From: Celeribacter ethanolicus
GTDB lineage: Bacteria; Pseudomonadota; Alphaproteobacteria; Rhodobacterales; Rhodobacteraceae
Direction: 5' to 3'
Assembly: GCF_001550095.1 (NCBI RefSeq)
Contig: NZ_LRUC01000052.1
Span: 186,001 to 250,000, forward strand
Length of the DNA stretch: 64,000 nt
Positions 60,064 through 62,228 of the stretch are shown here, one piece after another (position 1 is the stretch's first letter; the number at the start of each line of letters is the position of its first letter). The translations under genes were made by a program, and so were the position numbers. The notes below the pieces were generated by a model, which ran no database searches, was not told the DNA's origin, and was given only the letters and a program-made list of their open reading frames with translations.

Positions 60064-60417
60064 ACGTCTTCCTTTCCGCCACGTCTCATGGTCTGACCCT
60101 TTACCCCGAAATAGGCCCTTTGCTGACCCTTTTCCACAGCGGTTTGACGCTCCCGGTCCGAAACCTGCCCCCAAAGGTGAAAATAGGTCAGTATTGGTCA
60201 TGCATTTTCTGCATAGCGGCATTGCCGACAGGGCGGATTGTGCATTCGCAGCAATTCCCCGATATTGAAATCAACGAAAGCAGCCGAGGCTTGCACCCTT
60301 GATCGCTCCAAAGCGGTTTGCCTCCCGAAAGGAGGCGTTGGCAAAACGCCAGCGAGGACGAGACACGGCAGCGCAGGTCGCGGGGGGTCCCGCACGCACA
60401 TCTAAGGTTGAAAGCTT
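60064..60417. other. Divergent leader region of mrp and the DUF1127 gene
   Basis: No gene is seen in these 354 bp. The right third is the 5' leader of the DUF1127 gene and contains two neighbouring hairpins. GCCTCC pairs with GGAGGC around CCGAAA-type bases (60320-60336), and GTTGGC pairs with GCCAGC around AAAAC (60337-60353). The first contains both an anti-ribosome-site-like CCTCC and an AGGAGG, echoing the loops of the RNAs downstream. In R. sphaeroides the equivalent operon is driven by heat-shock-type sigma factors; a CTTG at about 60290 could be a -35, but no matching -10 is convincing. Confidence 0.45.
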
Positions 60418-60633
60418 ATGGCTTACGCAAACGACATCGACAGTGCCGCTCCGGCGTCCCCCACCCTCTTCGGTGGGCTGTTCAAATCCATCGCGGAACG
60501 CGTTGCGCGCTACCGGGTCTACCGTGAGACCGTGCTTGAGCTGTCGGACCTGAAGGATCGCGACCTCGCCGATCTCGGATTGTCCCGCGCGTCGATCCGG
60601 GCCGTGGCCTACGAAGCCGCTTACGGCAACTGA
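60418..60633 (+). CDS. ccaF1: DUF1127 small RNA-binding protein, CcaF1-like
   Basis: This 71-residue, basic, helical protein has the DUF1127 domain at its C-terminus: LSDLKDRDLADLGLSRASIR, with the Leu-Asp-Leu-Gly-Leu turn typical of the family. In Rhodobacter sphaeroides the 71-residue DUF1127 protein CcaF1 is encoded directly upstream of, and cotranscribed with, the CcsR1-4 sRNAs; it binds RNA and affects sRNA maturation (established knowledge). The same order is found here: the gene is followed 14 bases later by eight CCTCCTCCC-loop hairpins. The symbol is assigned from this context, not from a sequence search. The leader has two hairpins, and the ribosome site is poor (AAGG at ten bases). 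Confidence 0.8.
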   Translation: MAYANDIDSAAPASPTLFGGLFKSIAERVARYRVYRETVLELSDLKDRDLADLGLSRASIRAVAYEAAYGN

Positions 60634-60647
60634 AGAATAGACATCAC

Positions 60648-60715
60648 GGCCCTCTCCTCCTCCCTGGGCCCTGATACCTGCGGCAGCTCCTCTCCTCCTC
60701 CCTGGGGCTGCCGCA
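60648..60715 (+). ncRNA. CcsR/cuckoo-type sRNA 1 (two CCTCCTCCC-loop hairpins)
   Basis: Hairpin a (60648-60670) has GGCCC/GGGCC arms; hairpin b (60679-60715) has TGCGGCAGC/GCTGCCGCA arms. Both loops contain CCTCCTCCC (60656-60664 and 60694-60702). The RNA starts 14 bases after the DUF1127 stop, as in CcsR1 of R. sphaeroides. The loop can base-pair with ribosome-binding-site-like GGGAGGAGG. RNA ends are inferred from the stems. Confidence 0.8.
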
Positions 60716-60731
60716 TCAGATACCGGAATTC

Positions 60732-60799
60732 GGGGCCTCTCCTCCTCCCTTGGCCCTGATGACCAGAGCGGCGATGCTTCCTCCTCCCTGCATCGTCGC
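60732..60799 (+). ncRNA. CcsR/cuckoo-type sRNA 2 (two CCTCCTCCC-loop hairpins)
   Basis: Hairpin a (60732-60757) has GGGGCC/GGCCCT arms; hairpin b (60768-60799) has GCGGCGATGC/GCATCGTCGC arms. Loop motifs lie at 60741-60749 and 60780-60788. The spacing to copy 1 is 16 bases. The stems differ in sequence from copy 1 while the loops are identical, as expected when selection acts on structure plus loop. Confidence 0.8.
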
Positions 60800-60808
60800 A
60801 CCTATACC

Positions 60809-60820
60809 GGGCGAAAGCCC
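60809..60820 (+). other. Small GAAA-tetraloop hairpin between sRNAs 2 and 3
   Basis: GGGC-GAAA-GCCC is a compact GNRA-type stem-loop in the 28-base spacer between the second and third RNA, the only spacer of this array that is long and structured. It could be a processing or protein-binding signal. Confidence 0.4.
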
Positions 60821-60827
60821 AAGAAAT

Positions 60828-60901
60828 CGGTCCCTCTCTCCTCCTCCCTGAGGGGTCGTGACTGAAGGCGGCGGTGCCTTCCTCCTCCCTGGTACCGCCG
60901 C
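60828..60901 (+). ncRNA. CcsR/cuckoo-type sRNA 3 (two CCTCCTCCC-loop hairpins)
   Basis: Hairpin a (60828-60858) has CGGTCCCTC/GAGGGGTCG arms; hairpin b (60868-60901) has GCGGCGGTGCC/GGTACCGCCGC arms. Loop motifs lie at 60840-60848 and 60881-60889. Compensatory G-U/A changes in the second stem relative to other copies support a structured RNA. Confidence 0.8.
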
Positions 60902-60917
60902 ATTTCTTTTCAGAATA

Positions 60918-61002
60918 CGGGTCCTCTCCTCCTCCCTTGGGGCCCGATACCAAGAGACACCCGTGCCCCTCCTCCTCCCTGGGCGCGGGTGTCTTGCTTT
61001 TT
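60918..61002 (+). ncRNA. CcsR/cuckoo-type sRNA 4 with terminator
   Basis: Hairpin a (60918-60946) has CGGGTCC/GGGGCCCG-type arms. Hairpin b (60955-60994) is the longest, with AGACACCCGTGCCC/GGGCGCGGGTGTCT arms, and is followed by TGCTTTTT, making it the Rho-independent terminator of the whole DUF1127-sRNA operon. Loop motifs lie at 60928-60936 and 60971-60979. Confidence 0.8.
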
Positions 61003-61070
61003 ACCGATCAGACATCAGAAACTTTGAGCAGCCTCCTCCGGCTGGGGAAACGCGCAAGGCAATCACCGGC

Positions 61071-62228
61071 TCAGGCGGCGCGGTCGATCACCCGCTCGAA
61101 GGCCGGCAGGCCAACCAGCCCGGGGGCGCCCGCGTATTTCATCGGGTCGAGCGGGTATGGCCGGGCGTGCTTGCGCCCCGGGCGGAGCAACATCACCGGC
61201 TTGCGTTCCGGCGCACCGGAAATCCGTCGGATCAGCGCACTGCCCTCCTTGGGCGTCAGCAAGGGACGCGCCGGATGCTGTGCCCTTTTCCCCGTGAAGA
61301 GATCGAGCAGGCTCTCCACCGAGCCCTGCTCAACCCCACCCGGCAGATACTGGGCCACCGGACCAAGCACATCGCGCGCCATCTGGCCGAGGTACAGGCT
61401 TTCGCAGACCACCCCCCGGCAGGCAATCAACTCGTGATTGGCGCATAACAGATGGACATAGGAAATCGCATCGCGCGGACACAGGCGAATCGCATCGCCA
61501 TCAAGGAAGGACACCGCCGGGACCAGCACCTCTGCCCCTCGCCCGTCCTGCATCTCCTCCGGCAGATCGAGAAGGATGCGATGTTGCTGGCTCAACACCA
61601 GAGGCGCCTCATTGCCGAGACTGCCCGGGGCGAAGACCACCGGGGCATGACGCCCCCAGCCCCGCACCCGACGCGCGGCGATCCAGGCAATCGGCTGAAC
61701 GCCATGATCGAGCGTCACGACCCGGTCGCCGGGACGCAACTCCCCCGCCGCGCGCGGCCCCTCCGGGGTTTCGATCGGCATGGACGCCTCGAAACAGACC
61801 GCCTGATAGGTGGTCGTGGCCGATTGGTCGGTGTTGTAGAAACCCGGCGATTGCCCGGCATTGAAACTGCCCCAATACCATGTTTCGAGATCGAATTCCG
61901 GGGTCCAGACGATCTGGACCAACTCGCCGTTGCTATCGAGCCCCTCGAACACCACGGCATAGCCCTCATCCCCGTTGAGGTTGATATAATCGGAGCGCAC
62001 CACCGTGGCGTTTTCGATCGTATCGCCCCCCTGCCCGGAAAAGGTCAACGTATAGGTATCGCCGGGGGAGAAGACATAGGGACTTTCGTCTCCCTCCTGC
62101 GATTCGATGGTCAGAGAGTTTGTCGAAGTCGGCGGATAGTCGAATTGCGACGTGCCCGGTCCCGAATTCACATTCGAGCCGGTCGATGCCGCGAACTGAC
62201 TGTCGATGGCCTCGATTAAGATGGTCAT
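61071..62228 (-). CDS. Hint-domain protein (Hint_2 type), third copy, with different N-terminal domain
   Basis: This 385-residue protein contains a Hint module that begins at C145 (AVCFEASMPIETPEGP), continues with GELRPGDRVVTLDHGVQPIAWIAARRV and SQQHRILLD (block-B His), and ends near ANHELIACRGVVCESLYLGQ. It shares the Hint core with the tandem pair at 5.6-7.9 kb. Its first 140 residues are unrelated to theirs: Ser/Thr/Gly/Asp-rich, beta-like (PYVFSPGDTYTLTFSGQGGDTI), without a signal peptide. The C-terminal 80 residues are basic and include LLTPKEGSALIRRISGAP. GAGG lies before the ATG. Its 3' end faces the sRNA array across 70 bp. The function is unknown. Confidence 0.75.
   Translation of the reverse strand: MTILIEAIDSQFAASTGSNVNSGPGTSQFDYPPTSTNSLTIESQEGDESPYVFSPGDTYTLTFSGQGGDTIENATVVRSDYINLNGDEGYAVVFEGLDSNGELVQIVWTPEFDLETWYWGSFNAGQSPGFYNTDQSATTTYQAVCFEASMPIETPEGPRAAGELRPGDRVVTLDHGVQPIAWIAARRVRGWGRHAPVVFAPGSLGNEAPLVLSQQHRILLDLPEEMQDGRGAEVLVPAVSFLDGDAIRLCPRDAISYVHLLCANHELIACRGVVCESLYLGQMARDVLGPVAQYLPGGVEQGSVESLLDLFTGKRAQHPARPLLTPKEGSALIRRISGAPERKPVMLLRPGRKHARPYPLDPMKYAGAPGLVGLPAFERVIDRAA

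Follow-up and report, generated by a model that had tools for sequence, protein, structure and literature searches.

A ccaF1-CcsR ('cuckoo') sRNA operon of the Rhodobacteraceae with LysR-type promoter boxes resembling LsrB/VtlR sites

The 64-kb stretch of DNA analysed here (the window) carries a locus that is almost certainly a Rhodobacteraceae member of the ccaF1-CcsR ('cuckoo', CIN1) operon. The best full explanation, which is likely to hold, is that this operon is served by an LsrB/VtlR-type activator and an RpoH-like promoter and gives rise to four sRNAs with anti-Shine-Dalgarno (anti-SD) loops. Control of the operon by an LsrB-type regulator, probably together with RpoH, is proposed with moderate confidence. 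The observed basis consists of the motif, the hairpins, their covariation, the gene order, the promoter boxes and an LsrB-like gene. The array itself is a well-conserved addition to an already known RNA family. Feature coordinates are listed in Table 1.

Table 1. Positions in the window of the promoter elements, gene and RNAs of the operon
Feature	Position	Strand	Basis and remarks
Distal LysR-type site TGCATTTTCTGCAT (TGCA-N6-GCAT)	60201..60214	+	Conserved; equals the LsrB motif of the S. meliloti NfeR1 promoter (PMC10746234)
VtlR-box-like 15-mer TGCATAGCGGCATTG	60210..60224	+	13/15 to the reverse complement of the Brucella VtlR motif (PMC12595884)
Predicted promoter core ATTGTG-N16-CCGATAT	60237..60265	+	RpoH-like -10, 6/7 to CCTATAT
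Proximal LysR-type site TTGTGCATTCGCAGCA	60238..60253	+	Overlies the predicted -35; start-to-start distance from the distal site 37 bp
DUF1127 gene, 71 aa, counterpart of ccaF1	60418..60633	+	PF06568; homologues in the genus and family of the window
CcsR-like RNA 1	60643..60715	+	H1 60643-60675, H2 60679-60715; Rfam, fold, covariation
CcsR-like RNA 2	60730..60799	+	H3 60730-60759, H4 60768-60799; Rfam, fold, covariation
CcsR-like RNA 3	60827..60901	+	H5 60827-60865, H6 60868-60901; Rfam, fold, covariation
CcsR-like RNA 4	60918..60995	+	H7 60918-60946, H8 60954-60995; Rfam (weakest match), fold; covariation for H7 only
T-run, presumed Rho-independent terminator	60998..61002	+	Five T after the 15-bp stem of H8; sequence and fold

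Exactly eight copies of CCTCCTCCC are present in the window, all on the + strand and spanning 60656-60979 (starts at 60656, 60694, 60741, 60780, 60840, 60881, 60928 and 60971), whereas 100 dinucleotide shuffles of the window held 0.77 copies on average and 4 at most, none reaching eight. Each motif can sit in the loop of a hairpin, in agreement with the eight identical-loop hairpins described in the initial annotation. The 4.2-Mb genome (52 contigs) contains 52 matches, against 36 for a reversed-pattern control. As 16 of the 52 are accounted for by the array, which is present on two contigs, 36 fall outside it; there the motif is at background level (36 versus 36 in the control), and no second cluster was found in the genome. 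The assembly carries the locus twice (contigs C10 and C48), identical over 3,079 bp and with a constant offset for matches across ~10 kb, representing either redundant contigs or a recent duplication.

The product of the DUF1127 gene matches PF06568 with 44.2 bits (cut-off 23.3). An Rfam search of the window at gathering threshold returned nothing, and the family was visible only in searches by E-value. The covariance-model search proposed in the initial annotation was accordingly positive by one measure and negative by the other: in a 1-kb search CcsR1 (RF02791) was found on units 1-4 with 43.6, 33.8, 37.3 and 25.8 bits (E 3.8e-9 to 6.9e-4), but none of the four reached the gathering score of 65.3. 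Likewise, ar14 matched three stretches with 51.7, 42.2 and 34.2 bits, short of its gathering score of 58.8. In the family, CcsR1 is matched at E <= 1e-3 by 324 of 394 genomes but at the gathering score by only 17, which makes this cut-off a narrow one; 1 of 14 control genomes matches at the same E-value, with none above the gathering score. The CcsR1 gathering score thus seems to mark an R. sphaeroides-like subgroup rather than the whole kind; both CcsR1 and SorY are, we presume, Rfam families that originate from R. sphaeroides.

The identity of the operon was settled by its neighbourhood. In a set of 80 loci, a few of them with fewer than two motifs, 75 (the window's own among them) have an mrp-like gene oriented divergently from the motif strand, and 77 have a DUF1127 homologue. 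The name mrp-like is a reading of the gene, backed by Pfam ParA/NUBPL and FeS_assembly_P matches. Cereibacter johrii and C. azotoformans, which we take to be relatives of R. sphaeroides, both have the mrp-like gene, upstream and divergent, together with eight motifs and a DUF1127 protein of 71 aa. The comparison with R. sphaeroides was made through these two species, R. sphaeroides being absent among the 20 named stretches, and the record titled Luteovulum azotoformans is assumed to be C. azotoformans under a synonym. The locus has the features that mark the cuckoo/CcsR family, namely shared loops on variable stems, compensatory stem changes and a co-oriented DUF1127 gene upstream. The CcsR layout and the link to DUF1127 that had been suggested from the sequence are upheld by the PF06568 gene, the CcsR1 matches on all four units and a gene order as in Cereibacter-type records. 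As described for ccaF1-CcsR1-4 of R. sphaeroides (PMC10253847), four RNAs with CCUCCUCCC loops and then a terminator come after a 71-aa DUF1127 gene. However, the stems and spacers differ here, the CcsR1 scores are 26-44 bits against 65.3, and the -10 is CCGATAT whereas many CcsR1-type loci have CCCATGTT.

LysR-type promoter boxes were missing from the account of regulation in the initial annotation. Alignment of 19 loci from the genus revealed a conserved block of ~70 bases upstream of the DUF1127 gene, and TGCAT.TTCTGCAT is invariant in all 19. The distal and proximal sites both fit T-N11-A. In 58 array loci the proximal form was found in 53, the strict distal form in 36 and both in 34; the other strand of these loci, 188.5 kb in all, gave 1 distal and 0 proximal matches. 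The proximal box is present in 72 of 78 array loci; for L164, one of the six without it, the retrieved stretch lacks upstream DNA. Anchoring on the proximal box alone placed 72 of 81 loci, and every one of these matches the reverse complement of the VtlR motif at 12-14 of 15 positions (best of three offsets; 13 in the window), whereas 2000 shuffled motifs, scored alike, averaged 5.4 and did not exceed 9.6. The 72 promoters are homologous to one another and are therefore not independent trials. Taken alone, the VtlR 15-mer with 3 mismatches is no rarity, being found twice in the window where 2.6 matches are expected; the weight of the match comes from its fixed place and conservation.

With a transcription start predicted 7 bases after GATATT, the distal site would occupy -72 to -59, a position that hangs on the predicted start. 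By sequence, a TGCA-N6-GCAT site and a VtlR 15-mer would thus be located at about -72. In S. meliloti, LsrB is reported to activate NfeR1 from a site at -72 to -57, with the TGCA-N6-GCAT motif at -72 to -60 (PMC10746234), and VtlR is reported to regulate DUF1127 genes positively (PMC12595884). Alpha-r14/NfeR1 of S. meliloti resembles the present system in having identical anti-SD loops on hairpins with variable stems, as well as the LsrB motif at -72, but comprises three hairpins with CCUCCUCCC and, according to part of the published description, apparently has its own promoter with a sigma-70 signature. A sigma-70 scan of the window's promoter region found nothing.

A search of the window's own genome with TGCATTTTCTGCATAGCGGCA, allowing up to 3 mismatches, gave three distinct places and none for the reversed control: the cuckoo operon (on both contigs), the interval separating a LysR-type from a purL-like gene (the latter named by a reading of the gene), and the region upstream of a second DUF1127 gene. 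That second gene (L052:1501-1845; G000:C22:17673-18017) has a box with 3 mismatches upstream and no CCTCCTCCC in its 3-kb locus. Across the genus, TGCATTTTCTGCATAGCGGCAATG occurs in 20 of 20 genomes, at 24 places (control 0); judged by position, 21 of these belong to the DUF1127/cuckoo locus and the remaining 3 to the LysR gene. Class-wide, the strict two-box pattern was detected in 1 of 142 genomes, the window's own, and was absent from one member of the same family (G253). Either this search was overly stringent, or the arrangement is confined to Rhodobacteraceae.

The genome has, as judged by sequence, one clear LsrB-like LysR gene. The LysR protein encoded beside the box has 9HH1 as its best PDB match (251 bits; next 118), and 9HH1, searched against the genome, finds this gene first (251 bits; next 131), so that the two are each the top match of the other and the gene is a putative lsrB orthologue. 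9HH1 is given as the A. tumefaciens LsrB (PMC11975290). Among 142 genomes of the class, 83 have a homologue of this LysR protein at E <= 1e-40. In Rhizobiales, adjacency to trxB is a mark of lsrB, and trxB is next door in 26 of 28 LysR homologue loci from outside the family. It does not adjoin the LysR gene in either of the two Rhodobacteraceae loci checked; in the window's own genome, where this mark is absent, trxB adjoins a gene that reads like an Lrp-type regulator. Of 60 chosen family genomes, 58 have the LysR gene, some at only 49-52% identity. No joint loss of gene and array was seen in this set, 16 of the 17 genomes without an Rfam CcsR1 match having kept the gene.

A SorY-like core follows the LysR gene in all 30 best-matching loci (two seemingly from the same genome taken twice), and Rfam SorY matches three loci with 62-66 bits (cut-off 111). 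The strict box lies between the LysR gene and the SorY-like sRNA in only 8 of these 30. The sRNA, with a ACCTCCCTGTTGGACTT core and a strong terminator, is placed directly after the LysR stop codon at L051:1584-1661 (G000:C2) and in L074, L075 and L165-L194. For Agrobacterium the order trxB-vtlR followed by abcR1 and abcR2 is described (PMC7486931). Since a SorY-like sRNA follows the LsrB-like gene as abcR1 and abcR2 follow vtlR, SorY and AbcR may be positional counterparts.

The VtlR/LsrB regulon of Brucella, Agrobacterium and Sinorhizobium, which includes DUF1127 genes, the AbcR sRNAs and NfeR1, shares with the Rhodobacteraceae loci a LysR gene near an sRNA and a box before DUF1127 genes and anti-SD sRNAs. 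It differs in that the two family loci checked are without trxB beside the LysR gene and in that the neighbouring sRNA is SorY-like here. The LsrB-NfeR1 and VtlR-DUF1127 links in Rhizobiales are already in print, as is the conservation of LsrB across the class, with one dissenting statement: LsrB has been called conserved in the class (PMC7486931) but also unique to Rhizobiales (PMC11975290; both statements from parts of these papers). No published link of LsrB/VtlR to CcsR or CcaF1 was found in a search mainly of titles and abstract starts, nor, among the titles and abstract starts examined, any report of LsrB acting on Rhodobacter sRNAs.

An LsrB/VtlR-type activator has to be weighed against a promoter driven by RpoHI/RpoHII alone, with the same RNAs produced and the upstream boxes binding another LysR-type protein or retaining an UP-like element. 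This alternative is possible but rather unlikely. CcsR and SorY of R. sphaeroides are reported to be RpoHI/RpoHII-dependent (PMC5036791, PMC8307010), and the reports on the ccaF1-CcsR promoter, as far as their text was available, name RpoHI/RpoHII and no LysR protein. Compared with the S. meliloti RpoH1 consensus CTTGAA-N16-CCTATAT (PMC8844928), the window's -10 is close, and 47 of 72 loci match the -10 at 5 or 6 of 7 positions, but the window's -35 agrees at only 3 of 6. Use of RpoH is consequently taken as likely only, by fit to the core together with the R. sphaeroides reports. Other LysR proteins would also be available, the genome giving 30 matches to LsrB at E <= 1e-3. Against this alternative stand two T-N11-A sites held at a constant spacing of 36-37 bp in all 34 loci with both, agreement at 12-14/15 positions with a box to which VtlR is reported to bind, and the presence of the same box next to the LsrB-like gene itself. 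These points favour control by an LsrB-type protein, probably acting with RpoH.

Turning to the RNAs, the 372-nt stretch folds with z = -7.1 (0 of 100 shuffles equally good). When hairpin energies were compared with shuffled arms, H2, H4, H6 and H8 were never equalled (0/500), and H1, H3, H5 and H7 gave 4, 3, 3 and 2 of 500, respectively. The energies alternate between weak and strong in each of the four pairs (-13.5/-24.7, -17.1/-18.1, -14.1/-26.0 and -12.7/-29.5 kcal/mol), the second being nearly equal, and this bears out the earlier proposal, made from alternating short and long stems, of four two-hairpin RNAs. Distances from motif to motif are 38, 39, 41 and 43 within pairs and 47, 60 and 47 between pairs. 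When H5 is folded freely, an alternative pairing that buries part of the motif is slightly favoured (-15.2 versus -14.1) and is also present in the minimum-energy fold, in which 7 of 8 motifs are therefore exposed in loops. The terminator noted at the outset has the expected five T after the H8 stem. However, a scanner restricted to loops of 3-8 found a single 5-pair stem (60985-60997) before the T-run, about as many as expected by chance (1 against 0.9), and the call is for this reason a reading of sequence and fold.

It is improbable that the array remains mainly uncut, as a polyvalent 3' UTR whose eight anti-SD loops damp translation broadly or protect the DUF1127 mRNA. The identity of the loops would suit such a role, and across 78 loci the number of motifs ranges from 2 to 15, as if dose outweighed the identity of the units. 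On the other hand, 8 motifs is the commonest number (27 of 78), the pair spacing and the weak/strong alternation favour two-hairpin units, and CcsR1-4 of R. sphaeroides are reported to arise by processing (PMC10253847, PMC8625941). At one extreme, locus L028 (G025:C38) has an expanded array of 15 CCTCCTCCC motifs behind the DUF1127 gene. In one genus member (locus L022, G014) the first three units are intact but the fourth CcsR unit is lost, with H7 and H8 degenerate.

The DUF1127 protein was searched in 61 genomes, with 35 matched at E <= 1e-3, and the array is present in all 19 loci of the genus (the window's genome and 18 genus-mates). Covariation was assessed in 14 of these 19, over 64 pairs of H1-H7. 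The stems had been said to differ and yet pair, and they do so in 98.5% of cells, whereas controls slid by 1-3 columns pair in only 34-50%. Pairs changed on both sides number 12 against 5.9 in shuffles (0/500), but the measure of 'further pair types' does not rise above shuffles (42 versus 40.1; 93/500). Alignment-free arm swaps between species favoured the hairpin's own 3' arm in the majority of cases for every one of H1-H8, from 149/168 for H2 down to 97/146 for H4, and swaps between hairpin positions favoured the own arm in 731 of 758. The mean pairwise difference per column over H1-H7 is 0.023 in loops, 0.130 in stems and 0.243 in the rest. Exact loops were found in 14/14 for H1-H5, 13/14 for H6, 8/13 for H7, the least conserved, and 13/13 for H8. 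As 109 of 110 hairpins are most like their own position class in other species, the units are position-specific within the genus and not recent copies. A protein-coding stretch or a REP/CRISPR-type DNA repeat in place of RNA is extremely improbable: long open frames do cross the array (e.g. 196 aa at 60858-61448), but there is a single cluster in the genome, the motif flanks are not repeated, and the compensatory stem changes, together with indels of one or two bases between orthologues, speak against both.

In the proposed mechanism, an LsrB/VtlR-type LysR activator would bind twice, at -72 to -59 and over the -35, and act together with the RpoH-like core. A single transcript would run from near 60273 to near 61000 and contain the DUF1127 mRNA with a long 3' region. 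If the case of R. sphaeroides is a guide, it would be cleaved into four two-hairpin sRNAs by RNase E together with the DUF1127 protein; cleavage of the ccaF1-CcsR transcript by RNase E is reported (PMC10253847), and the CcsR RNAs of R. sphaeroides are described as stress-induced, RNase E-processed, Hfq-bound and pairing with target mRNAs. We infer the transcript ends and the processing, and likewise the use of Hfq and the signal of the regulator. The 9-nt anti-SD loop of each hairpin would pair with GGGAGGAGG-like ribosome sites and thereby block translation, and the stems would drift, but in pairs, because they hold up the loop. The locus would thus act as a stress operon in which the activator and an RpoH-type polymerase produce the DUF1127 mRNA and four sRNAs that block selected ribosome sites.

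In the scan for targets that the initial annotation had named, GGGAGGAGG was found 3-14 nt before an ATG at 10 places in the genome (control 2), two of which are the array's own other strand on the two contigs. Three sites precede long credible genes, for a FAD monooxygenase-type protein, an ABC transporter ATPase and a GAF/Fis-type regulator, and a further site (L040) opens a 199-aa frame. The L048 site (G000:C49:144021) places GGGAGGAGG 8 nt upstream of the ATG that opens a GAF/HTH_8 regulator gene. Loop-target pairings of fewer than the full 9 bases are probably used as well.

The promoter evidence ties the cuckoo operon and the SorY-like sRNA of Rhodobacteraceae to a regulator studied in Rhizobiales. 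The case is evenly balanced for a wider reading, in which an LsrB/VtlR-type regulator is an old shared controller of anti-SD sRNAs and DUF1127 proteins across alphaproteobacteria and is required with RpoH for ccaF1-CcsR and SorY in Rhodobacteraceae, R. sphaeroides included. If this is true, sRNAs that have been studied as RpoH-regulated would form one LsrB regulon.
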